64,000 nucleotides of DNA from Lautropia mirabilis (GTDB lineage: Bacteria; Pseudomonadota; Gammaproteobacteria; Burkholderiales; Burkholderiaceae_E). Positions 49,499 to 64,000 of the stretch are shown piece after piece. Within the stretch, counting starts at the first letter, position 1. Every line of letters begins with the position of its first letter. Under the pieces are notes generated by a model. That model was given only the letters and a program-made list of their open reading frames with translations. It made no database searches and had not been told where the DNA came from. The DNA is taken from positions 382,001 through 446,000 of the forward strand of contig NZ_LR134378.1 in the NCBI RefSeq assembly GCF_900637555.1, in the 5' to 3' direction. The position numbers and the translations under genes are program-made.

Positions 49499-50659
49499 TC
49501 ACCCCTTCGCTGGCGGCTGCCCCTGCAGCATGCGATGGGCATCCGCCTCGCTCAGCGCGTAGTCGAAGAACTGGCGGTAGAACGCCTGCACCCGCGCCGG
49601 CAGGTCATCGGCAGACAGCTTGTCCGGATGCAGCCGGGACAGGGCCCAGCGCAGCTGCAGGGTGATCTCACAGCCATAGCGATCCCACGGGAACACGCCT
49701 TCCGGGTTGGTATGGAGCCGCCCGGCACGTACGGCGCCCAGCTGCGCAAAGCCCGCCGCCTTCTTCTGCCCGGCACTGCTGGCTGACTCGATGATCACGT
49801 CCGGATCCCACGCCAGCAGCTGCTCGACCGACACCGGCCTCAGGCTGCCCTTGATGGAAGCCGCCGCATTGATGCCGCCGGCCGCCTGGATCCACTCGTC
49901 GATGATGGTGTTTGATCCGTCAACCAACAGCTGCGGTTCCCACTGCGCGATGTGCAGCACGCGCGGGCGCTTCGCTTCCGGGATGCCACTGCTGATGCGA
50001 CGCACCTCGGACAGCGCCTCGTCCAGATGCTGCAGATATCGCTGCGCACGTTCGGGCGCATCATTGCCCAGCACCTTTGCCGTCAGCGCAATGCTGTCAC
50101 GCATCGAAGAAAAGTCCTGAAAGACCGTCTTCACCACCTGGATGCCGGCCGCCTGCAGCTCGTTGGCCGCCGGATCGGACGGCGTGAGAAAGGCCAGCGT
50201 GATGTTGCGTGCCAGCAGGGATTCGGCCACGAAGCCCCCCTTCGGGGCATGGATGGCGTCATGCAGCGACGGCGCCACCTGGTACATCCAGGGCTTCTGC
50301 TTCGGTGCATTGACGGTGGCCGCAATGCGCTTCGTGGCACCCAGCATCATCAACACCGAAGCATGCGCCGGCCAGCCATTGGCGATCAGCGCCTTCGGAT
50401 CGGGCCTGGCATCGGCCAGCGGTGTCACATCGCCCAGTTTTGCGGCTGCCTTGCCGGACGCCGCCTCCTTCGCACGGGCACTACCAGCCCACGACACCAT
50501 CGCGCCGGCCAGCAGCCCCCCGGCGGCCAGCAGCAGGCGGCGACGCTCACCCCATGCAGCCATGCCGGGCGCGGTACGTGTAGTTCCTGACGGCAGGCCA
50601 CCATCCGTCGTCCCACTTTTGGCGGTCGAAGCCAGCCGAACTTCCTTTCCGTCTTTCAC
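49499..50659 (-). CDS. ABC transporter substrate-binding protein, metal-chelate type
   Basis: 386 residues from GTG 50659, chosen over ATG 50677 because AGGAGGG lies five bases upstream. An N-terminal ERRRLLLAAGGLLAG segment with ARA cleavage site looks like a signal peptide, possibly Tat-dependent because of the Arg run. The body is a two-lobe periplasmic-binding fold of the FecB/BtuF class, with MLGATKRIAATV, VLHIAQWEPQLLVDGS and DPDVIIESASSAG. It is the last gene of the leftward uptake operon. Ligand may be a ferric siderophore, haem, cobalamin or another metal chelate. Confidence 0.82.
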   Translation of the reverse strand: MKDGKEVRLASTAKSGTTDGGLPSGTTRTAPGMAAWGERRRLLLAAGGLLAGAMVSWAGSARAKEAASGKAAAKLGDVTPLADARPDPKALIANGWPAHASVLMMLGATKRIAATVNAPKQKPWMYQVAPSLHDAIHAPKGGFVAESLLARNITLAFLTPSDPAANELQAAGIQVVKTVFQDFSSMRDSIALTAKVLGNDAPERAQRYLQHLDEALSEVRRISSGIPEAKRPRVLHIAQWEPQLLVDGSNTIIDEWIQAAGGINAAASIKGSLRPVSVEQLLAWDPDVIIESASSAGQKKAAGFAQLGAVRAGRLHTNPEGVFPWDRYGCEITLQLRWALSRLHPDKLSADDLPARVQAFYRQFFDYALSEADAHRMLQGQPPAKG

Positions 50660-50824
50660 GCTATCCCTCCTGTCCATGAGACAACGCCGGGATCGACCCT
50701 GATCCCGGCGCCGGAATCCGGTGCATGCCGGTGCAGCACCCGATGACATCGCGGCCTTGGCGGCCACGGAAAATGCAGGAACAAGGGCAGGCCCCGGCGG
50801 CACACCGTCCCGCCCTGTCGTCAC

Positions 50825-53044
50825 TTACAGCGCGAACTGCACCGTCAGCATGGCCGAACGCGGATCACCCACGTCCGCCGTGGCATTGCCGTTGCCACTG
50901 TAGCCGTTCAGGCCACCGGCCACGATATTGGTCCAGTAGCGCTGATTGGTGACGTTGTACACCGTCAGACGCCAGGTGGTGTCATGCCCCCACAGCTGCT
51001 GTTCCCAACGGGCGCCCACATCCAGCCGCCCATAGCCGCCGATCCAGTCGGTGTTGGCGTAGTTGGCGGCACGGCGGTTCATGGTGATGAAGCGTGCGTT
51101 GACGGAGAGCCCCGGCACCGCGCGGATGCGCATGTCACCCATCAGGCTGGCGGTCCAGCTGCTCAGACCCACGATCTTCTTGTCACGGCTGGCGGCATTG
51201 GCCGATGCCACCATGCGCGGGTCCAGCCACGACACCATCGCGGTCATCGACAGATCCTGCGTGACATTGCCGGAAATGCTGCCCTCGAAACCACGGTTGC
51301 GCTGCTTGCCGGCCTCACGATAGACCGGCAGGTTGTTCAGCAGCGTCTCGCTGTCGGTGTAGGCAAACGGCCGCTCGATCCGGAACAGCGCGATATTGGC
51401 GTCGAAGGCGTGCAGGCGCGTCTTGTAGCCCAGTTCCCACTGCTTGCTGCGATACGGATCCAGCACCTCGCCCGCGTTGCCCGTACCGGCGGGCGCCGCA
51501 TCACCCGGCTGCAGCGTGTCGCCATAGCTCAGGTACACGCTGTTGACCGGATCGAATCGGTACATCACGCCGGCAAAGGGACTGAGCCCGTGGTCGCTGG
51601 AGCTGCGCGTGGCTGCGCCGGCACGGTTGTAGTTGGTGAGCTTCATCCAGCTGTAGCTGGCGCTCAGCATCACCTGCCAGTTCGGGTCCAGGTCCACCGT
51701 GTCAGCCAGAATCAGTGACTGCTGGCGCTGGGCAGCACTCTGGTAGCGCTGCTTGAAGTCCGGCCAGTCGGGCTGGGCATACAGTGTCGGTGCTGCCAGG
51801 CTGGCCTGCCCCAGCATGATGGAACGTCCTGCACGCGGGTTGTAGTTGTTCCAGTCGAAACCGTTGTTGGCCACGGTGATGTCATGCTGCATGCCCCCGG
51901 CCTGCACCTTGCCATTCAGGCTGAGCTGGTTGCCGGTGACCGTGAATCGGCTGGCCGTGGTGGAGCTGCTGGTCGTGACATAGTTGCCGGCGGCACTGCG
52001 CAGCGTGTTGCTCACACTGGTGCTTTCACGGTCGGCAATCTGGCGCGACAGACCCGCCGTCAGCTGCCAGCCCGAATCAAGGCGATGCAGCACGCGGGTA
52101 GTGATCGTGCTGGTCTCGTTGTCGTTGCCGGAATAAGGCTGGCCATAGCCCACCCGCTTCGGATCCACCGCCGCCGGGAACGGCACGTTGGCGGCCACAC
52201 CGAAACTGCCGGCCTCGCCACGACGGATGAAGCGATAGTGGCTGGCATTGACCTGCCACTGCGTGCTGGGCGTCAGGTCCGCATCCAGCGCCACGCCACC
52301 GAAGGTGCGCCGGCGGTGGCTGCCCTCAGCGTACGAATTCCCCGTTTCCTGCAGCAGGTTCGCTCGCACCCGCCAGCGCTTGTCCGCCGTCAGCGGCGTC
52401 CACAGGTCTGCGTGGATGGAAGGCCTGGCATCGCTGTCGATGCCCAGGCGCAGCGTGTTGGTACCGGTGGTGCCCGCCCGTTTCTGCGTGAAACCAAAGA
52501 CCCCCGATCCCGTGGCCGGTCCGTACAGCGAACCCGCCACACCGTTCAGCACCTCGATGCGCTCGAACTGCTCGGTGGGGTAGTTGGTGGTGCTGACCAT
52601 GTTGAAGCCGTCGACCCGGCTGTTCTGGATCACGCTGCCCTGCACGCCGCGTGTCTGCGGCCGGACCGTGTCGGCCTGCACCCAGGGCAGGTAGCGCAGC
52701 GCGTCCTGCACGCTGAAGTTCTGATCATCGGCCATCTGCTCGGCGCTCACGGCCGACACCGAATAGGGCGTCGCCACCGAGTCACGCTCGCCCAGCGGCC
52801 CCACCTGCACCCGGCGCTGCGCCTGGCGGACTTCGTCGGTTCCGGACGTACCCACCACAGAAATTCTGGGTAGCGTGGCCGTTTCTTCAACAGCGGTGGA
52901 GTCCTGAGCGAAGCCACCGACCGGCGCGAACAGGGCGGCCAGAGTCAATGCCAGCATGCGCGGCTGCCAGCCACGGCCGGCCAGAGAACGAAGCGACCGC
53001 TGCTGTCCGGCAGGGGTGGAAGAGATGTTTTTCTTGGATGTCAT
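50825..53044 (-). CDS. TonB-dependent siderophore-type receptor
   Basis: 739 residues from ATG 53044. Signal peptide ending near GGFAQD. The plug domain contains the region ATPYSVSAVSAEQMADD, RGVQGSVIQNSRVDGF and EVLNGVAGSLYGPATGSGVFGF, and the C-terminal barrel ends in LTVQFAL with a terminal aromatic/hydrophobic strand pattern. The plug resembles FhuE/FpvA-type ferric siderophore receptors, without an N-terminal signalling domain. It sits between the ABC ATPase and the binding protein, indicating that all act on one ligand. Confidence 0.87.
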   Translation of the reverse strand: MTSKKNISSTPAGQQRSLRSLAGRGWQPRMLALTLAALFAPVGGFAQDSTAVEETATLPRISVVGTSGTDEVRQAQRRVQVGPLGERDSVATPYSVSAVSAEQMADDQNFSVQDALRYLPWVQADTVRPQTRGVQGSVIQNSRVDGFNMVSTTNYPTEQFERIEVLNGVAGSLYGPATGSGVFGFTQKRAGTTGTNTLRLGIDSDARPSIHADLWTPLTADKRWRVRANLLQETGNSYAEGSHRRRTFGGVALDADLTPSTQWQVNASHYRFIRRGEAGSFGVAANVPFPAAVDPKRVGYGQPYSGNDNETSTITTRVLHRLDSGWQLTAGLSRQIADRESTSVSNTLRSAAGNYVTTSSSTTASRFTVTGNQLSLNGKVQAGGMQHDITVANNGFDWNNYNPRAGRSIMLGQASLAAPTLYAQPDWPDFKQRYQSAAQRQQSLILADTVDLDPNWQVMLSASYSWMKLTNYNRAGAATRSSSDHGLSPFAGVMYRFDPVNSVYLSYGDTLQPGDAAPAGTGNAGEVLDPYRSKQWELGYKTRLHAFDANIALFRIERPFAYTDSETLLNNLPVYREAGKQRNRGFEGSISGNVTQDLSMTAMVSWLDPRMVASANAASRDKKIVGLSSWTASLMGDMRIRAVPGLSVNARFITMNRRAANYANTDWIGGYGRLDVGARWEQQLWGHDTTWRLTVYNVTNQRYWTNIVAGGLNGYSGNGNATADVGDPRSAMLTVQFAL

Positions 53045-53176
53045 GATGAGAAGGAAAGACGATCCGGGAAACGGACCCGGCAAGACGGAGGGGGAACCCA
53101 GGAGAGAGAGGCCGGCAGCACCCCATGGGAGGGTCTGCCGGAAGAAGCAACCGGATGCACGCGCGAGGAAAGAACA

Positions 53177-53989
53177 TCAGCCCCCCGGCGTGGCATGCAG
53201 GCAGGCCGCCACCGCCTGCTCGGAAACACCGTACAGCGCAGCCAGCGCCGCCGGCGTGGCCGTCTCGCGCGGGGCGCCTACGGCCACCATGTGGCCACGT
53301 CCCAGCAGCGCGATGCGGTCGGCCACGCGCAGCGCATGCTCGGGCTGGTGCGTGGTCATCAGCACCGCCATGCCGCCGGCGCTCAGACGCTCCACGTGTT
53401 CCAGCACACGGATCTGATTGCCGAAATCCAGGCTGGCGGTGGGCTCGTCCATCACCAGCAGACGGGGCTCCTGCACCAGCGCACGGGACACCAGTGCCAG
53501 CTGGCGCTCGCCCCCGCTGATGGCGGTGTAGATGCGCGGTGCCAGGTGCTCGATGCCCATCATTGCCAGACAGCGCCGCGCCAGTTGCCGATCGGCCTCA
53601 CCGGGCGAGGCAAAGCGCCCCAGGTGTGCAGCACGCCCCATCAGCACCACGTCTTCCACCGTGTACGGGAACACGCCCACGCCAGCCTGCGGCACATAGC
53701 CCACCCAGTGGGCGAAGTCGCGCCGGGACCACTGGCCCAGCGGCCGTCCGCCCAGCAGCACTTCACCACCCAGCGGGGGCAACAGGCCCAGCAGCGTGCG
53801 CAGCAGCGTGGTCTTGCCGCAGCCGTTCCCCCCCAGCAGGCACAGCACCTCACCTGCTGACAGCGAGAAGTCCAGTCCCTGCGACACCTGCTGGCTGCCA
53901 TGGCCGGTAGCCAGCCCCCGGGCCTGCAACACGATGGACGGCATTGCGTCGGAGCCGTTCTGTCTGACAGCATTCATGGCGGGCCTCAC
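53177..53989 (-). CDS. ABC transporter ATP-binding protein (FecE/BtuD type)
   Basis: 270 residues from GTG 53989, which overlaps the permease stop as GTGA; ATG at 53977 or 53944 are alternatives. Walker A GGNGCGKTTLL, signature ISGGERQLALVSRAL and Walker B LLVMDEPTASLD are intact, along with a final switch His in MTTHQPEHAL. It energises import through the neighbouring permease. Confidence 0.92.
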   Translation of the reverse strand: MRPAMNAVRQNGSDAMPSIVLQARGLATGHGSQQVSQGLDFSLSAGEVLCLLGGNGCGKTTLLRTLLGLLPPLGGEVLLGGRPLGQWSRRDFAHWVGYVPQAGVGVFPYTVEDVVLMGRAAHLGRFASPGEADRQLARRCLAMMGIEHLAPRIYTAISGGERQLALVSRALVQEPRLLVMDEPTASLDFGNQIRVLEHVERLSAGGMAVLMTTHQPEHALRVADRIALLGRGHMVAVGAPRETATPAALAALYGVSEQAVAACLHATPGG

Positions 53990-55062
53990 AGGTCGCGGCC
54001 GCCACGGGCCAGCAGAAAGAGGAAGAAAGGCGCGCCCACCAGCGCGGTGACGATGCCCAACGGCAGCTCGATGTCGGCCACCGTGCGGGCCAGCGTATCG
54101 GCCACCACCAGAAAGCCGCCGCCCAGCATCAGCGAGGCCGGCAGCAGACGACCAAAGTCGGGCCCCACCAGCAGCCGCGCCACATGGGGCACCACCAGGC
54201 CCACCCAGCCGATGATGCCGGCAATGGACACCGCCGCCGCCGTGGCCAGCGTGGCCGCTGCCACCAGCAGCATCCGCATCCTGCCCACCGGCACGCCCAG
54301 CGCCTCGGCCTCGTCGTCATCGAGGCTCAGCAGGTTCATCCGCCAGCGCAGCAGCGCCATCGGCAACAGCCCCAGCAGCAGTGCCGGCGCCGTGCCCAAC
54401 AGGTCGGAGGCGGTAATGGCATTGAGCCCGCCCATCAGCCAGAAGGTGATGGACGGCAGTTGCGTGGTGGGGTCTGCCACCGTCTTGATGAGTGCAATGC
54501 CGGCTCCCAGCAGCGCGCCCACCGCCACCCCGGCCAGCACCAGCACCAGCACCGGGTCATGTCGCCGCACCAGCAGTGACAGCCCCAGCACCGCCCCCAC
54601 CGCCGACAAGCCTCCCACGAAGGCAAAGCCCTGCACGGCCCCCAGTGGCAGCCCCAACCAGATGGCCAGGACAGCGCCCAGGCCGGCGCCAGCCGAAACG
54701 CCCAGAATGTCGGGCGACACCAACGGGTTGCGGAACATGCCCTGATAGGCTGCACCGGCCGCGGAGAGCACCGCCCCCACCAGCAGGGCCGCGCCGATGC
54801 GCGGCAGGCGGATATTCCAGATCACCGTTTCCATGGCCGGCGGCAGGCCGGTTTCGCTTCCGGAGATGCGCGCCCACACGATGCGGGCCAGGTCTGCCGG
54901 GCCGATGGGAAACTTGCCCAGCGCAAAGGCCGCCAGCACCACCAGCAGCAGTGCGGCCACGGCCAACGCCCAGCGCAGCAGCCCGGGCGGAAGAAAATGT
55001 GCAGATCGCGGAACCGTGCCGCCCTGCGGCCCAGGCACGGCCTGGCTGTCGCGTTCTTTCAT
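53986..55062 (-). CDS. FecCD-type ABC transporter permease
   Basis: 358 residues. About nine to ten hydrophobic helices, RLPRIGAALLVGAVLSAAGAAYQG and the coupling-helix region LGVSAGAGLGAVLA are typical of the FecCD/BtuC family, as is GWVGLVVPHVARLLVGPDF. It is the first gene of the leftward operon permease-ATPase-receptor-binding protein. A symmetrical AT-rich element just upstream (55090-55119) may be its operator. Confidence 0.92.
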   Translation of the reverse strand: MKERDSQAVPGPQGGTVPRSAHFLPPGLLRWALAVAALLLVVLAAFALGKFPIGPADLARIVWARISGSETGLPPAMETVIWNIRLPRIGAALLVGAVLSAAGAAYQGMFRNPLVSPDILGVSAGAGLGAVLAIWLGLPLGAVQGFAFVGGLSAVGAVLGLSLLVRRHDPVLVLVLAGVAVGALLGAGIALIKTVADPTTQLPSITFWLMGGLNAITASDLLGTAPALLLGLLPMALLRWRMNLLSLDDDEAEALGVPVGRMRMLLVAAATLATAAAVSIAGIIGWVGLVVPHVARLLVGPDFGRLLPASLMLGGGFLVVADTLARTVADIELPLGIVTALVGAPFFLFLLARGGRDL

Positions 55063-57538: not shown

Positions 57539-57573
57539 TGAACACCGGCCTTGTCAGGCTGGTGTTCACTTTT
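57539..57573 (+). terminator. Intrinsic terminator after the DUF937 gene
   Basis: A 12-bp stem with one G-U pair (57539-57550 with 57557-57568), loop TTGTCA, then C and four T. Confidence 0.65.
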
Positions 57574-57596
57574 CGGGTCAAGGCGCCAAGAATCTA

Positions 57597-57625
57597 TTGA
57601 CTTATAATCTAATATATTCTCATTA
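57597..57625 (+). promoter_or_regulatory. Candidate promoter with overlapping Fur-like AT-rich site
   Basis: TTGACT (57597-57602) and a weak TCATTA (57620-57625) are 17 bases apart. The interval 57602-57625 is nearly pure AT in a 65% GC genome; on the minus strand it reads GAGAAT...ATTATA, which matches the half-sites of a Fur box only in part. An iron- or zinc-responsive control is plausible for the receptor downstream. Confidence 0.35.
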
Positions 57626-57812
57626 CTACTATGAAAATGAGGTCTGGTGCCCTCCGTGAGGTGCGCTGATTCCAGCCATCGTCCGCCCGGCACCACAGAC
57701 AGGACATTGCAGGCTCATCGGCCTGCATGCCGGATGGATGACAGGCTGGCCGCATGATGCCTGTGACAGCCCTGCCGGCACACCGCAAAAGCACACAGAG
57801 ACAAGACCCGTC

Positions 57813-59858
57813 ATGCGATACCCTGCCCCACGCCATCCCCTGGCCCTGGCTGTTCTGCTGGCATGCACCAGCCTGCACGCCCAGACCCAGCCCCGATCCG
57901 ACGGGACACCGGCCCTTGCCCGTGTCCCCCTGGCCAGCAGCACGGCCATGGTCGGCACCACCCAACCTGCCCGCCTCTCCAAGGATCAGCCTCCGTTCCG
58001 GACGACACAACACCGGACCTTGCTGCTGGCCGCCCGCCTGCCCGCCGTCACCGTCACGGCCACCGGACACGAGGAAGACGCCGTCACCGCCCCGGCCTCG
58101 GTCACGGTGATCGACCGGGAGCACATCCAGAATCGTGCCAGTGATGATCTGCTCGATGCCGTCCAGGACACCCCGGGCCTTTCCCTCGCGCCCAGACAAG
58201 CGGGCGGACGCAAGACCTTCAGCCTGCGTGGCATGAACGATGCCCACACCCTGATGCTGGTCGACGGCCGACGCATCTCCGCCACCGATGACGTAGTTGG
58301 GCACTCCGACTACCAGTATGGCTGGGTGCCGATGTCGGCCGTGGAACGCGTGGAAGTGATCCGTGGTCCGCTGTCGGCACTGTATGGTTCCGAGGCCCTG
58401 GGCGGCGTGGTCAACGTCATCACCCGCTGGCCCACCGACAAATGGGAAGGCGCCATCACCCTCTCCGCACAGCGCGCCTCCGACCACCAGCGCGGCGGCA
58501 CCGGCAGCAAGGCGTCCATCTACGCCGCAGGCCCCCTCGGCGAGAACCTGGCGCTGCGCCTTGACGGCGAGAAGGGCCACGTGGGCAGCATCGCCACGCC
58601 CGACAGGACTCTCAGCGAAATCGAGGGTCGGCGCCCCGGCAATGCCGGCATCACCGCCCGCTACACGCTCAATCCCCAGCACCGCTTCGAGGCAGGCTGG
58701 CGCCAGGGGCGCGAAGATCGGTTCTACAACGACACCAGCGTGCGCGGCGTGCGTTACCAGAACCTCTACAAGCTGGATCGTGAACAGACCCATGCCCAGT
58801 GGAACGGCAGCTTCGGCCAGACCCAGGCCCAGCTGCGCGCCTATCGCAGCGCCATTGAGGTGCGCAACTACCGCACCAACGGCGTCACGCCCACCCGCCT
58901 GCAGGACATGCGTGACGTGGTGTACGACGGCTCCGTGTCACACCGGATGGACGGGCACCATCTGGCAGCCGGCGTCGAGGCGCGGCGCGAGACCCTGATC
59001 AATGCCGGCCTGCGCAACGGGCGTGACAGCGCCGATCACCACGCGCTGTTCCTGCAAGACGAGATCAGTCTCGGCTCCAGCCTGATGGCCACCCTGGGCG
59101 TGCGCCTGGACCACCACGAGATCTTCGGCAACGAAACCAGTCCGCGTGCCTATCTGGTATGGCAGGCCACGCCCGAGCTGACCATCAAGGGAGGCTATGG
59201 CGAGGCCTTCAAGGCGCCCACGCTGAAGCAGATTTCCTCGAACTACGTCGGTGCCGAAGGACCGCACACCTTCTACGGAAACGACAACATCCGGCCCGAG
59301 ACCTCGCGTTCCTTCGAGCTGGCCGCCGACTACCGGATCGGCCCCCTGTCCCTGCGCGGCACGCTGTTCCAGAACAAGGTCAAGGATCTGATCTACCTGC
59401 GTCTGCTGCGTCAGCAGGGTATCCGCAATTTCTATCAGTACGACAACGTCAACCGTGCCCGCATCCGTGGGGCCGAGCTGGGGCTGGGCTGGGACATCAC
59501 ACCCAACCTGCACTGGAACAACGATGTGACACTGTTGCACACCCGTGACGGCAACGGCACGGAACTCGTCAACCGCCCACGCAACGTCGTGCATTCGCGC
59601 CTGCGCTGGGAAGCACCGTGGGGCTTCGATCTGCGGGTGGGTGCCCGTTACACCGGCCGGCAGCGGGTCACCGCCAATACCCATCTTCCCGGCTACACGC
59701 TCACCGACGCCAGCATCGGTCAGAAGATCAACCCGCATGTCAGCTGGCGCGTCGGCCTGGACAACCTGGGCAACCTTCGGCTGGCCGAGAAATCGCCGGA
59801 CTTCGGTTATGCCATTCGGGGCCGAACCTGGTTCACGCAGCTGCAGATCGAATTCTGA
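57813..59858 (+). CDS. TonB-dependent receptor (CirA/BtuB-like)
   Basis: 681 residues from ATG 57813. Signal peptide LALAVLLACTSLHAQ. A Pro/Ala/Thr-rich stretch of about 60 residues precedes the TonB box region (AVTVTATGHEED). The plug contains RASDDLLDAVQDTPGLSL, FSLRGMNDAHTLMLVDGRR, ERVEVIRGPLSALYGSEALGGVVNVIT, typical of the catecholate/haem/cobalamin receptor branch, and the barrel ends in LQIEF with the terminal Phe. It precedes the CobN-like gene by 141 bases, and both are probably transcribed together. The likely ligand is a metal-tetrapyrrole or metal chelate; sequence alone does not decide. Confidence 0.88.
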   Translation: MRYPAPRHPLALAVLLACTSLHAQTQPRSDGTPALARVPLASSTAMVGTTQPARLSKDQPPFRTTQHRTLLLAARLPAVTVTATGHEEDAVTAPASVTVIDREHIQNRASDDLLDAVQDTPGLSLAPRQAGGRKTFSLRGMNDAHTLMLVDGRRISATDDVVGHSDYQYGWVPMSAVERVEVIRGPLSALYGSEALGGVVNVITRWPTDKWEGAITLSAQRASDHQRGGTGSKASIYAAGPLGENLALRLDGEKGHVGSIATPDRTLSEIEGRRPGNAGITARYTLNPQHRFEAGWRQGREDRFYNDTSVRGVRYQNLYKLDREQTHAQWNGSFGQTQAQLRAYRSAIEVRNYRTNGVTPTRLQDMRDVVYDGSVSHRMDGHHLAAGVEARRETLINAGLRNGRDSADHHALFLQDEISLGSSLMATLGVRLDHHEIFGNETSPRAYLVWQATPELTIKGGYGEAFKAPTLKQISSNYVGAEGPHTFYGNDNIRPETSRSFELAADYRIGPLSLRGTLFQNKVKDLIYLRLLRQQGIRNFYQYDNVNRARIRGAELGLGWDITPNLHWNNDVTLLHTRDGNGTELVNRPRNVVHSRLRWEAPWGFDLRVGARYTGRQRVTANTHLPGYTLTDASIGQKINPHVSWRVGLDNLGNLRLAEKSPDFGYAIRGRTWFTQLQIEF

Positions 59859-59902
59859 GGCGATACCCGCCTTCACCAAAGCAGCACAGCTTTCCACGTC
59901 AC

Positions 59903-59958
59903 GCCCGTGCCCCGGCACGGGCCCTGCATCAGACCGCCTGAACACGCGACAGGCGGTC
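59903..59958 (+). other. Two stem-loops between the receptor and cobN-like gene
   Basis: GCCCGTGCC/GGCACGGGC (59903-59911 with 59914-59922) and GACCGCCT/AGGCGGTC (59932-59939 with 59951-59958). No T-run directly follows either, although a pyrimidine-rich stretch (CCCTTTCCTTTTCC) comes soon after. They may reduce downstream expression relative to the receptor or protect the message end. Confidence 0.45.
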
Positions 59959-59999
59959 CGATGCCCTTTCCTTTTCCTGGCGACCTTTCTTTCTTACGG

Positions 60000-62900
60000 A
60001 TGATGTCCATGCGCAGCATCAAACGCCCCCGTCCTGAAACCGTTCATGCCGCCAGCGTGATGACGCGGGCAGCGCAGGAACGCCTCCTGCTTCCGATCCT
60101 GCTGTTTCTGCTGCTGTCCTGCCTGAGCATCCTGCCCGCTCACGCCACGACAGAGGCAACGAACACCCCATCTTCCTCCCCAGCGGCTTCCCAGCCCCCG
60201 CTCCAGCCTCCCCCCAACGCCAACGCGGGCACCGCAGCCGATGGCACCCACCAGGCCCCTCCATCGGACAGCACACCATCCGAACGCCGCCGCCTGCTGT
60301 TCGTGGCCACCCACAACGTTCCTCGCGGCAAGTTCCATCACCTGGAACAGCTGGCCGCCCCGCACGGACTGGCCGTGGAAGGCCGCTATCTGGACAGCAT
60401 CCCCGCGCAGAGTGGCCCCGAAGTCTTTCGCGGCTATGACGCCGTGTTCATCGAATCACCGCTGGAGCAGGACGTGCGTGCCCACCTGGGCCGCGCGCTG
60501 ACCGAGCTGCAGACGCCCTTCATCTGGCTGAGCGCCCAGCGCCCCGCCTGGCAGGGCTTCACCGATGCACAGGCAAAGCCGCTGGTGGCCTACTACGTCA
60601 ACGGCGGTGCCCGCAACTTTGAAGGCTTCTTCCGGCTGCTGGCCAGCGCCATGGACCACCAGCCCGCACCGGCCGACCTGCCACCGCCGCTGGAGATCCC
60701 GCAGGTGGGCGTCTATCACCCCCAGGCCCCGGACCTGGTGTTTCCCGACGTGCCCGCCTTCCTGCGCTGGCGCGGCGTGACCGACCAACGCCCGCCCACC
60801 ATCGCCATCCTGATGCACCGTCAGTACCTGGACAGCATCGAGACCGGCATGATCGACGACCTGGTGGCACGCATCGAGAAGCAGGGCGCCATCGCCATGC
60901 CCATCTTCGACCGCATGCTGCCCAAGGGCAGCCTGCGCCAGCTGCTGCGCCCCGATGAAAACCAGCCGCCCCTGGCCGACGTGATCATCAACACCCAGAT
61001 CATGCTCAACGCCGAGGGACGGCGAAGCGAATTCACGGAACTGGGCCTGCCGGTCATCCAGGCCAACCGCTACCGCCATGGTGATGCCGCAGCCTGGCAG
61101 GCTGACGCCCAGGGCCTGTCGATGATGGAAGTGCCCTTCTTCCTGGCCCAGCCCGAATACGCCGGCATCACCGACATCCAGATCTCCGCCGCCACCCGCA
61201 AGCCCCACGACGACGTGGTGGCCATCCCTGCCCAGGCCCAGGCCGTGGCTGACCGTGCCCTGGCCCTGGCACGGCTGCAGCGCAAGCCCGCCGGCCAGCA
61301 GCAACTGGCGCTGATGTTCTGGAACTATCCCGCCGGCGAAAAGAACCTGTCGTCCTCGTACATGAACATCCCGCGCAGCCTGGGCAGCACCGCCGACGCC
61401 CTGCGCGAGGCCGGCTACGACATCCCGCCCCTTCCGCCCGAGGAAGAACTCATCACGCGACTGCAACGCCTGCTGGCCCCGGCCTACAGCCACGAACGCC
61501 CGGCCCTGCTGAAGCAGCTGCTGGCGGATGGTCTGGCCGCACCGCTGCCGCTGGCACGCTACCGCCAATGGCTGGACACCCTGCCCGAAGCCACCCGCCA
61601 GGCCCTGCTGACCCGCTGGGGTGATCCGGCGCGTACCCTCAGCGTCGTCGACTGGCAGGGCGAACCCGTCTTTGCCATCCCGCGTCTGCAACTGGGCAAG
61701 CTGGCCATCCTGCCGCAACCCGGCCGCGCCGAACCCGGCCCCGATGGCAACATCGACCGCGAGAAGGCCCTCTACCACTCCACCCGTGCCGACGCCCTGC
61801 CCCCGCACACCTACCTGGCCACCTACCTGTGGGTCCGCGAGGGCGCTGCGCATGACGCCCTGATCCACTTCGGCACCCACGGTACCCAGGAATGGCTGCC
61901 CGGCAAGGAGCGCGGACTGTCCGTCTACGATCCACCGATGCTGGCCATCGGCAACATCCCGGTCATCTACCCCTATATCGTCGACAACGTCGGTGAAGCC
62001 ACCCAGGCCCGTCGCCGTGGCCGCGCCGTCACCGTCAGCCACCAGACCCCGCCACTGCGCCCGGCCGGCCTGCACCAGCGACTGACCGAGCTGCACGACC
62101 TGCTGCACCAGTGGCTCTCGCAGGAAGAAGGCGCCGTCAAGGACCAGATCAGGACCGATATCCTGGCTCGCGCAAAACAGGAACGCCTGCTGGCCGACCT
62201 GGAATGGACCGAAGAACGCGCCCGCACCGATTTCGCCGCGTTCCTCGACACGCTGCACGCCCACCTGCACGAGCTGGCCGAGACCATCCAGCCCGTGGGC
62301 CTGCACACCTTCGGGCAGAACGCCCAGGAAGAGCACCGGCTGGCCACCGTGATGATGATGCTGGGCAAGCCTTTCCTGGAAGCGGCCGCCCGCCACATGG
62401 GCGAACCGCAGACCGAACTGGACGAGACCCTGGCCGTCGACTACCAGCAGATGATCGACACCTCACCCTACCGGCTGCTCAAGCGCTACCTGCAGCCTGA
62501 CGCCGATCTGCGCGAGCTGCCCGAGCCCCTGCAGGCGCATCTCGCCCAAGCGCGCCAGTGGTGGCAGGCGCTGGATGCCGGCGGCGAGACCCTGGGGCTC
62601 ATCGCTGCCCTGCAGGGACGCTACCGCCCCACCGCCTACGGGGGGGATCCGGTGCGCAACCCCGACGCCCTGCCCACCGGTCGCAACCTCTATGGCTTTG
62701 ACCCTTCCCGCGTGCCCACCCGCCACGCCTGGGAAGCCGGCAAGCAGGCCGCCGAGAAACTCATCGCCGCCCACCGCCAGCAGCATGGCAGGACACCGGC
62801 CAAGCTGGCCGTGTCGCTGTGGTCGGTGGAGACCATGCGCCACCAGGGCCTGCTGGAGGCCCAGGCCCTGTGGCTGATGGGCGTGGAACCCATCTGGGAT

Positions 62901-64000
62901 GAAGGCGGTCGCGTCATCGACGTGAAGCTCGTGCCGCGCGAACAGCTGGGCCGCCCGCGCGTGGACGTGGTGCTCTCGGCCACCGGCCTGTACCGCGACC
63001 ACTTCCCCAACGCCATCCAGCAACTGGCCCGTGCAGCCCAGCTGGCTGCCGAAGCCGATCGTGAGCCCGACAACGCGGTCGCCACCCATACCGCCCGCAT
63101 CCGGGCCCTGCTGAAAGAGCGTGGTCTGGACGAGGACAGCGCCCGTGACGCGGCCCAGACCCGCATCTTCTCGTCCGAGCAGGGCCTCTATGGATCGGGC
63201 CTGGACGATGCAGCCCTGGCCACCGACACCTGGGAGGGCAAGGAGGAAGGCGACCACAAGCTGGCCCGCCTCTACCTGTCACGCATGCAGTACGCCTACG
63301 GCCCTGATCCCCGCCGCTGGGGCAAGCGTCTGGCCGACATCATGTCCCAGCCGACCGGTGGCAGCGCCCAGGCCGCATCAGGCGGCAGCACGGCAGCAGC
63401 CCCCGGCGCCAGCCCCGACGGTACAGCTGCCAGCACAACAGCCAACGCCCCGGGGGCCCCCGCCGAAGCGCTGAACCTCTACGCCGAGCAGCTGCGCGGC
63501 ACCGAGGGCGCCGTTCTGTCACGCTCGTCCAACCTGTACGGCATGCTCACCACCGACGATCCATTCCAATACCTGGGTGGCATCGGCCTGGCCGTGCGCC
63601 ACCTGGACGGCAAGGCACCCGAGCTCTACATCAGCAACCTGCGCACCCCGGGCAGCGGCCGTGTGGAGCGCGCCAGCCAGTTCCTGTCGCGGGAGCTGGC
63701 CACCCGCCAGTTCCACCCCGGCTACATCCAGGGCCTGATGGCCGAAGGCTATGCCGGCACCCTGGAAGTGCTGGACGCCACCAACAACCTGTGGGGCTGG
63801 ACCGCCGTTGCCCGCGAGATCGTGCGCGACGACCAGTGGCAGGAAATGGTGGACGTGTATGTGCGCGACAAGCACCAGCTGGGCCTGAAGGACTGGTTCG
63901 AGCAGCACAACCCGCACGCACTGGCCCAGACCATCGAGCGCATGCTGGAAGCTGCCCGCCAGGGCTACTGGCAGACCGATGCGCAGACACTCACCGAACT
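60000..64000 (+). CDS. cobN: CobN-like cobaltochelatase-family protein with predicted export signal (3' end outside window)
   Basis: At least 1333 residues from ATG 60000 (60003 and 60009 are alternatives), still open at the window end. The N-terminus has basic residues followed by the hydrophobic run LLLPILLFLLLSCLSILPAHA, a good signal peptide, then a 50-residue Pro/Ala/Ser linker. The rest is a CobN/BchH-type large chelatase subunit: HFGTHGTQEWLPGKERGLS near residue 622 has the conserved His/Glu pairs of the active site, with later AYGGDPVRNPDALPTGRNLYG and VDVVLSATGLYRDHFPN. Residues about 1117-1160 are an Ala/Ser/Gly insertion. Cytosolic CobN inserts cobalt with CobS and CobT; a signal sequence and the adjoining TonB receptor argue for a periplasmic role instead. 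Confidence 0.9.
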   Translation, partial: MMSMRSIKRPRPETVHAASVMTRAAQERLLLPILLFLLLSCLSILPAHATTEATNTPSSSPAASQPPLQPPPNANAGTAADGTHQAPPSDSTPSERRRLLFVATHNVPRGKFHHLEQLAAPHGLAVEGRYLDSIPAQSGPEVFRGYDAVFIESPLEQDVRAHLGRALTELQTPFIWLSAQRPAWQGFTDAQAKPLVAYYVNGGARNFEGFFRLLASAMDHQPAPADLPPPLEIPQVGVYHPQAPDLVFPDVPAFLRWRGVTDQRPPTIAILMHRQYLDSIETGMIDDLVARIEKQGAIAMPIFDRMLPKGSLRQLLRPDENQPPLADVIINTQIMLNAEGRRSEFTELGLPVIQANRYRHGDAAAWQADAQGLSMMEVPFFLAQPEYAGITDIQISAATRKPHDDVVAIPAQAQAVADRALALARLQRKPAGQQQLALMFWNYPAGEKNLSSSYMNIPRSLGSTADALREAGYDIPPLPPEEELITRLQRLLAPAYSHERPALLKQLLADGLAAPLPLARYRQWLDTLPEATRQALLTRWGDPARTLSVVDWQGEPVFAIPRLQLGKLAILPQPGRAEPGPDGNIDREKALYHSTRADALPPHTYLATYLWVREGAAHDALIHFGTHGTQEWLPGKERGLSVYDPPMLAIGNIPVIYPYIVDNVGEATQARRRGRAVTVSHQTPPLRPAGLHQRLTELHDLLHQWLSQEEGAVKDQIRTDILARAKQERLLADLEWTEERARTDFAAFLDTLHAHLHELAETIQPVGLHTFGQNAQEEHRLATVMMMLGKPFLEAAARHMGEPQTELDETLAVDYQQMIDTSPYRLLKRYLQPDADLRELPEPLQAHLAQARQWWQALDAGGETLGLIAALQGRYRPTAYGGDPVRNPDALPTGRNLYGFDPSRVPTRHAWEAGKQAAEKLIAAHRQQHGRTPAKLAVSLWSVETMRHQGLLEAQALWLMGVEPIWDEGGRVIDVKLVPREQLGRPRVDVVLSATGLYRDHFPNAIQQLARAAQLAAEADREPDNAVATHTARIRALLKERGLDEDSARDAAQTRIFSSEQGLYGSGLDDAALATDTWEGKEEGDHKLARLYLSRMQYAYGPDPRRWGKRLADIMSQPTGGSAQAASGGSTAAAPGASPDGTAASTTANAPGAPAEALNLYAEQLRGTEGAVLSRSSNLYGMLTTDDPFQYLGGIGLAVRHLDGKAPELYISNLRTPGSGRVERASQFLSRELATRQFHPGYIQGLMAEGYAGTLEVLDATNNLWGWTAVAREIVRDDQWQEMVDVYVRDKHQLGLKDWFEQHNPHALAQTIERMLEAARQGYWQTDAQTLTE

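Follow-up and report, generated by a model that had tools for sequence, protein, structure and literature searches.

An exported CobN-like protein of Lautropia mirabilis with a candidate membrane motor: a putative iron-regulated haem (de)metallation operon

The closest described relatives of the locus considered here are operons for exported CobN-like proteins. HmuS, encoded in the hmuYRSTUV operon of Bacteroides and Porphyromonas, is an exported, membrane-anchored class-I chelatase whose operon also carries genes for a TonB receptor, a MotA/ExbB protein and a DUF2149 protein, with the role of HmuU and HmuV in dechelation being left open in the excerpts of the HmuS papers (PMC12583661; PMC13227078). 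In Pseudomonas aeruginosa, PA1922-PA1925 encode in this order a receptor, a CobN-like protein, a protein annotated as ExbD and a hypothetical protein, under Zur control during zinc starvation (PMC4542158; PMC10393844; PMC13083405). The BtuS family (Rodionov, 2003, as cited in PMC6460266) is an exported third type of CobN relative with a proposed function in metalloporphyrin salvage; in Bacteroides fragilis, release of protoporphyrin from haem persisted in a btuS1 btuS2 double mutant (PMC6460266). The present locus lies in a 64,000-nucleotide stretch of Lautropia mirabilis (assembly GCF_900637555.1, contig NZ_LR134378.1, positions 382,001 to 446,000; hereafter the window) in which a gene for a TonB-dependent receptor is followed, head to tail and in the same direction, by one for a CobN-like protein that is predicted to be exported. 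The operon is read as an iron-regulated system that exploits a metal-tetrapyrrole, most probably haem, outside the cytoplasm, with a MotA-like/DUF2149 pair driving demetallation by the CobN-like protein, a reading given slightly less than an even chance. The kind of system is already known (BtuS/HmuS; PA1922-PA1925); what is new is the clade, its probable iron control, a cavity unlike that of HmuS and the case for a dedicated motor.

The receptor (681 amino acids; PF07715, PF00593) is encoded on the plus strand at 57813..59858 from an ATG at 57813, within an open reading frame that opens at 57738. The reading frame of the cobN-like gene, also on the plus strand, opens at 59907 (GTG) with the ATG at 60060 as the most plausible start, and the gene occupies 60060..64000, where the end of the window truncates it. 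Its downstream part was read in L002, a stretch of the same genome running past the window end (window position = L002 position + 55999), giving a protein of 1461 amino acids that ends at window-equivalent 64445 (L002:4061-8446). Beyond it on the plus strand lie genes for a MotA/TolQ/ExbB-family protein of 167 amino acids (L002:8492-8995, window-equivalent 64491-64994; PF01618, E 3.5e-6) and a DUF2149 protein of 107 amino acids (L002:8992-9315, window-equivalent 64991-65314; PF09919, E 1.1e-26), followed by a BCCT transporter gene. The initial annotation had described a CobN-family protein with a signal peptide and linker directly after a TonB-dependent receptor, and had suggested that ExbB/ExbD/MotA-like genes and a C-terminal membrane anchor might follow; the description was borne out, with MotA/ExbB and DUF2149 genes found downstream and a C-terminal hydrophobic helix predicted.

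The CobN-like protein matches PF02514 over profile positions 2-1090 of 1090 (E 4.5e-302), and its best PDB match is HmuS (9d26; E 3.3e-111, and E 1.1e-197 in a profile search). It begins with a signal peptide (60060..60146, plus strand, with cleavage predicted between MTRAAQERLLLPILLFLLLSCLSILPAHA and TTEA), a linker of about 50 residues and the chelatase region, after which come a linker rich in Pro and Ala, a hydrophobic helix near the C-terminus and, following this helix, basic residues. Signal peptide and anchor were predicted by hydropathy and the AxA cleavage rule, and the protein is most likely exported and membrane-anchored. The NCBIfam model NF004644, 'cobaltochelatase subunit CobN', is matched above its cut-off (1367.6 against 1248), which would favour the protein being the CobN subunit of the B12 cobaltochelatase. 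The same model is matched above cut-off by one member of each of the four exported clades defined below (A, L045; B, L077; C, L076; D, L029), and as a label on exported proteins it hides a set of metal-acquisition systems. Cobaltochelatase CobN (CobNST) is cytosolic and ATP-driven. It shares PF02514 with the window protein and differs in that five canonical rows show, by eye, no signal peptide or C-terminal anchor. The predicted export and anchor of the window protein stand against a function in B12 synthesis, as does a score for TIGR02257 below the curated cut-off (526.1 against 822.05 bits).

The gene content of the host genome argues in the same direction. The CobN-like protein was the sole PF02514 protein found in the 3.17-Mb genome, and CobT (PF06213), which the initial annotation had reported missing from the window, was not found genome-wide either; for CobS no dedicated model was run, a PF07728 search giving 16 unsorted matches. 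A corrin-ring cluster at about 2.16 Mb holds CobU, CbiX, CbiC, CbiG parts, CbiB and tetrapyrrole methylases, so that cobalt insertion can be covered by CbiX. A cobalamin operon immediately downstream, which would have spoken for B12 synthesis, was not seen: the BCCT transporter gene stands there, with no corrinoid gene beside the operon. As far as tested the CobN-like protein is not a B12 enzyme, and the B12 cobaltochelatase was dropped as highly improbable on the missing CobT and the CbiX of the corrin cluster. Among the 74 genomes of the window's own family, PF02514 occurs in 37: in 23 as a higher-scoring protein (1082-1120 bits) and never with DUF2149, in nine, always with DUF2149, as a protein that scores lower (958-1007 bits; eight genomes) or is fragmented (G072), and in five as partial matches without DUF2149. 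DUF2149 without PF02514 was seen in G002 and, as a fragment where a contig ends, in G071. No PF02514 match was found in the eight congeners (G014-G021), some of them incomplete, and the operon was thus probably gained or often lost.

The wider comparison used 64 loci from a scan of named genomes and 10 stretches from the family search, 3 of which duplicate named loci. Before the residue tables and tree, L022, L023 and L024 (copies of L039, L094 and L043) and the cut loci L047, L086, L090 and L091 were dropped; L027 and L081 are also outside the tree and L027 outside the 74-row residue table, the near copies L034, L050, L081 and L094 were excluded from the clade-A motif set and kept in other counts, and the cut L084 is outside the tail count. 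In a tree of 73 proteins, built by a quick method without HmuS or PA1923 and with a long and unsure Runella branch, the exported members separate from five canonical CobN proteins and one BchH. They form four groups, each with full support in the Shimodaira-Hasegawa-like approximate likelihood ratio test: A (26 rows, including the window), B (29), C (6) and D (4). Clades A and B occur together in Castellaniella defragrans (L045, L077), and A and C in Acidovorax sp. 210-6 (L041, L079); the five clade-D loci all come from one genus of the window's family. On this tree the window protein belongs to a separate proteobacterial clade, A.

Both partner genes were found in 65 of the 69 loci examined, the exceptions being L042, L084 and L075, which are cut by contig ends, and L079, a genuine exception. 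The MotA-like protein has a GLxATMIP motif with an invariant Thr (Thr99 in 65/65), and the DUF2149 protein a single membrane helix opening NLIDxFLV, in which Asp26 is found in 64/65 loci and in 54/54 rows of the alignment. All 68 complete CobN tails carry the motif [VIML]xGxx[LMF] 6-24 residues before the membrane helix, against about 1.5 expected from shuffled linkers; in the window protein it reads VRGQRL (L002:8288-8305, plus strand, past the window end) and stands 19 residues before the helix. The canonical CobN rows have no tail of this kind. This arrangement resembles ExbBD-TonB, in which a MotA-family channel and a one-helix partner with a membrane Asp act on an effector that combines a membrane helix and a Pro-rich linker with a short conserved motif close to the helix, the D-box of TonB serving as a handle for ExbD (PMC10907165). 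It differs in that the CobN tail is C-terminal, its motif is another one and the periplasmic domain of DUF2149 is modelled as all-beta. In a draw of 397 Pseudomonadota genomes, DUF2149 was found in 19, the window genome among them. At 18 of 19 other DUF2149 places in this draw tblastn located a CobN-like gene close to the pair, the last, L142, having a Sel1 protein. The tail motif was present in 12 of these 18 further CobN tails (8 by pattern, 4 by eye), with one variant, EQGVRL.

The pair might instead be a variant of ExbBD whose energy goes to the neighbouring TonB receptor and not to CobN. Such a role has been drawn for HmuU/HmuV (PMC12583661) and proposed for PA1924 (PMC4542158), and membership of the MotA/ExbB family (PF01618) is in keeping with it. 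The window operon, however, has no tonB gene, and all five clade-D loci run receptor, ExbB, ExbD, TonB, CobN and then MotA-DUF2149 (tblastn, with Pfam on L029; one receptor is cut), such that a complete ExbB-ExbD-TonB set stands alongside the pair. Four clade-C loci of the order ZrgA-MotA-DUF2149-CobN have no adjoining match to three receptor queries, although L074 has one on the opposite strand at a distance of about 6 kb. Proteins other than CobN that carry a CobN-type tail are also encoded beside the pair. In genome G002, which has MotA-DUF2149 and no PF02514 match, the preceding gene encodes an exported Sel1-repeat protein with VEGQRLAPV and a GAGAWWQ helix at its C-terminus, and in L142 a second Sel1-repeat protein with the tail VQGQAL and GAWQQ stands beside MotA-DUF2149. 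These pairs and their preceding Sel1 genes lie at L030:4968-7056 and L142:4997-6947, both on the minus strand, and neither a CobN match nor a match to the three receptor queries was found in the two stretches. A pair that serves the receptor is on balance unlikely. The ExbB-ExbD-TonB of clade D, the receptor-less ZrgA loci and the conserved tail tie MotA-DUF2149 to CobN and not to the receptor, and the pair looks like the CobN-like enzyme's own motor.

More broadly, and with rather more doubt than confidence, MotA-DUF2149 may be a further family of proton-driven envelope motors beside ExbBD-TonB and TolQR-TolA, acting on periplasmic proteins tagged by a VxGQxL tail and helix and powering class-I chelatases outside the cytoplasm in place of the ATP-driven CobST or ChlID. 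Its cargo would be swappable, being a chelatase in iron, zinc, corrinoid or nickel settings or a Sel1-repeat protein, with the window operon as the betaproteobacterial iron/haem version. If the motor reading is true it names the energy source of periplasmic chelatases, HmuS included. In the excerpts of the open-licence full-text literature, subscription journals being outside the search, there was no statement that MotA-DUF2149 drives CobN-like proteins, nor of a Fur-box exported CobN clade in betaproteobacteria.

De novo searches upstream of the operons gave different palindromes for the two large clades. In 22 clade-A regions the motif was AATGCGAATnATTCGCATT (log-likelihood 159; six shuffled sets gave 53-79) and in 29 clade-B regions AATGTTATAaTATAACATT (262, against 76-85 shuffled), with 60 seeds in the shuffled runs and 150 in the real ones. 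On the basis of the consensus sequences of Fur and Zur operators, AATGCGAATnATTCGCATT is taken to be a Fur-type box and AATGTTATAaTATAACATT a Zur-type box. At 18 bits or more, the Fur-type motif was present in 15/22 clade-A and 0/29 clade-B regions and the Zur-type motif in 21/29 clade-B and 0/22 clade-A regions, with neither at this level in six clade-C or five clade-D regions; random 570-bp stretches reach 18 bits in 12 (A-motif) and 20 (B-motif) of 1100. Further upstream in the Acidovorax-type clusters there is one strong Fur-type site (L033, 28.7 bits); six others are weak (11.0-12.7), and L051 has none. Given that the Zur-type motif is absent from all the clade-A regions, a zinc-starvation operon was rejected for the window, and the parallel with the zinc-starvation operons of Pseudomonas drawn in the initial annotation most likely concerns the other, Zur-box clade. 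PA1923 itself was not aligned and probably falls in clade B, judging from the Pseudomonas sp. member L060. Near clade-B loci there are CobW/COG0523-type GTPases (5/29) and zinc-finger DksA (2). In the window, a Fur-like operator, AATCTAATATATTCTCATT, lies 5' of the receptor gene at 57606..57624 (no strand assigned) and scores 13.6 bits with a clade-A matrix built without the window locus and 10.9 with the Zur-type matrix; it is the second best site of the 64-kb window, and block-shuffled windows reach its score in 4/20. The operon is probably iron-regulated, as its clade suggests.

Haem receptors keep a His between the FRAP and NPNL boxes (PMC6813434; PMC6449446). The window receptor reads FKAP...EGPHTF...GNDNIRPE, with a His between boxes that match FRAP and NPNL only partly. 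Such a His is present in 17/20 aligned clade-A receptors (near copies included), 0/28 in clade B and 1/3 in clade D, with 6/26 clade-A loci lacking an alignable receptor; the clade-A receptors without it (L044, L048, L085) are of another type. ChaN (PF04187), a haem-binding family, is encoded between cobN and motA in 4/26 clade-A loci (L044, L048, L085, L046), a ferritin-family bacterioferritin-like gene lies near 5/26 and imelysin near 3. In the window genome FeoB is present, and a search for haem oxygenase PF01126 found none, other haem-degrading families not being searched. It is on the Fur-type boxes across the clade, the receptor His, ChaN in four sister operons and the presence of FeoB without PF01126 that the haem reading rests. 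The initial annotation had offered a betaproteobacterial system for haem or corrinoid (de)metallation; haem is now the most likely of the two, and the locus is most likely a haem (de)metallation system, although we infer the substrate and the reaction, including removal as against insertion and the metal concerned.

The receptor could alternatively import a non-tetrapyrrole iron chelate, to be stripped or reloaded by a reused chelatase fold. Against the NCBIfam haem, B12 and CirA models the receptor scores below every cut-off and best against the catecholate-siderophore type, CirA. A siderophore-type receptor (just below cut-off) and a FecCD-type ATP-binding cassette (ABC) importer lie nearby at 49499-55062, and next to 8/26 clade-A loci are genes for an ABC permease and for a product resembling an NMT1-type binding protein, the latter with a borderline Pfam score. 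Set against these points, class-I chelatases of known substrate, namely CobN, ChlH and HmuS, act on tetrapyrroles in the excerpts available (PMC12583661), ChaN is present in four operons and the ring-cavity histidine is conserved. This motif histidine, the equivalent of HmuS His538, is the second His of HFGTHG (61866..61883, plus strand) and is found in all 74 rows aligned, with other letters of the motif varying; HmuS His506 is also kept in the alignment to 9d26. An iron-chelate substrate is accordingly improbable.

For haem the following sequence of steps may be proposed. Under iron limitation Fur would release the operon, as the clade suggests, and the TonB-dependent receptor would carry haem into the periplasm, in keeping with its motifs. 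The CobN-like protein, anchored by its C-terminal helix on the Pro-rich linker, would bind the ring in its class-I chelatase cavity and remove the metal, a reaction extrapolated from HmuS through a demonstrable sequence relation. The MotA-like/DUF2149 proteins, as a proton-driven inner-membrane motor, would couple to the CobN tail as ExbBD does to TonB and supply the work given to cytosolic relatives by the AAA+ ATPases CobST or ChlID; gene order, tail conservation and effector swapping all point this way, and an own membrane motor would explain how the enzyme runs in a space without ATP. Fe(II) would then enter through FeoB, whose gene is present and whose link to the operon is conjectural.

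A number of results weigh against this scheme, beginning with the cavity. The stretch TTDDPFQYLGG (63549..63581, plus strand) places Asp and Gln where HmuS has His1209 and Glu1212 of its LSLDHxxEFMGG feature (PMC12583661), in the alignment to 9d26. The same Asp/Gln pair is seen in 27/27 clade-A rows, 6/6 clade-C rows and 4/5 canonical CobN rows, with His/Glu in 27/29 and His/Asp in 2/29 clade-B rows and His/Glu in 4/4 clade-D rows. The site-1 (head/neck) haem ligands Met79 and His254 are likewise not kept in the profile alignment: clade A has Tyr, His or Pro at column 79, which depends on the alignment, and Ile at column 254, where 27/29 clade-B rows have His. The Met-rich domain IV insertion of HmuS, which holds 21 Met in about 120 residues (PMC12583661), is absent, no 120-residue stretch of the CobN-like protein having more than 7 Met. 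By these ligands clade B is nearer to HmuS than clade A, an argument against carrying the HmuS mechanism straight over to the window protein, and orthology to HmuS was ruled out by the residue tests and the missing insertion. The parallel with HmuS drawn in the initial annotation holds for a related exported chelatase with the HFG(T/A)HG histidine, the same partner genes and iron-linked control in clade A; it fails at the residues, and the window operon also has no HmuY or HmuT gene and belongs to a proteobacterial clade of its own, HmuS being outside the tree.

The Asp/Gln pair, shared with cobaltochelatase CobN, could signify another ring or metal. This bears on an alternative in which imported corrinoids have their cobalt removed or exchanged by the exported protein in the periplasm, or in which its substrates there are cobalt-loaded tetrapyrroles. 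The clade-C relative L079 also favours this alternative, its neighbours being genes for CobU, CobO, CbiB, a FecCD permease and a binding protein of PF01497. Clade A, however, has Fur-type boxes and the haem-type receptor His, and the genes seen next to the window operon include none for corrinoids. Furthermore, four of the six clade-C loci, all with Asp/Gln, open with a ZrgA-type zinc protein (L073 and L076 by Pfam, L074 and L080 by tblastn), such that the pair does not simply track cobalt. A corrinoid or cobalt substrate is therefore considered rather unlikely. Reading metal specificity from Asp/Gln as against His/Glu was also rejected, with zinc-linked clade C having Asp/Gln and zinc-linked clade B His/Glu or His/Asp.

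The haem scheme is weakened at other points as well. No haem model passed for the receptor, TIGR01785 remaining below its curated cut-off (210.8 against 316.85 bits), and no receptor match was found in the clade-A loci L038, L043, L045 and L051. The His is missing from the receptors of three of the four operons with ChaN, and for the fourth, L046, the alignment contained no receptor; the two haem signals thus come from different clade-A operons. ChaN and bacterioferritin lie near a minority of clade-A loci and are absent from the window operon. The window's own Fur-like site is weak and degenerate, and for this reason the regulation of the operon is drawn mainly from clade A. With regard to the motor, the tail pattern was picked after inspecting the sequences, which are related, five remote CobN tails of the 18 lack it and have another short shared pattern, and L079 has no MotA or DUF2149 gene beside its CobN-like gene, its genome holding a pair elsewhere, at L041. 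The DUF2149 model is beta-rich, all-beta after the helix and of low confidence (predicted local distance difference test score 69.4); Foldseek gave no ExbD or TolR among the matches listed (best 50 of 514), PDB profile searches gave nothing convincing and no ExbD for DUF2149 and a best E of 0.083 for the MotA-like protein, and viral contigs scanned with DUF2149 held no relative. In the lack of a fold match, the likeness of DUF2149 to ExbD rests on topology and the membrane Asp.

The BtuS literature, in the excerpts of PMC6460266, describes no clade with Fur boxes and a haem-type receptor. The same machine is now seen behind Fur-type boxes, behind Zur-type boxes and in a hydrogenase cluster, settings that make the choice of metal mappable to receptor and cavity residues.

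Several further observations concern the neighbourhood and the relatives. The cluster at 49499-55062 of the window, on the minus strand, encodes a siderophore-type TonB receptor, a PF01497 binding protein, an ABC ATPase and a FecCD permease; transporters of corrinoids, haem and F420-0 are among its best NCBIfam matches, none of which reaches the cut-off. The Acidovorax-type clade-A clusters L099, L041, L050 and L081 have three receptors, an NMT1-like binding protein with a permease, and a lipoprotein with two AHLPHL repeats between cobN and motA, the place of ChaN in other operons. This lipoprotein matched no Pfam family at E 0.001 (tested on L099), and its identity with ChaN was not confirmed. 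The remote exported CobN-like loci L144-L148 (about 32% identity) have a divergent DUF2149; by eye, their tails seem to share a pattern like ITEVS/IVEVS, which would fit co-variation of tail and motor. On a plasmid of Runella slithyformis (Bacteroidota; L100), genes for a receptor, a membrane protein weakly like NicO/DsbD, MotA, DUF2149 and a CobN-like protein lie between hypF and hypC-hypD-hypE, which serve hydrogenase maturation, and this locus is possibly a nickel version of the system.

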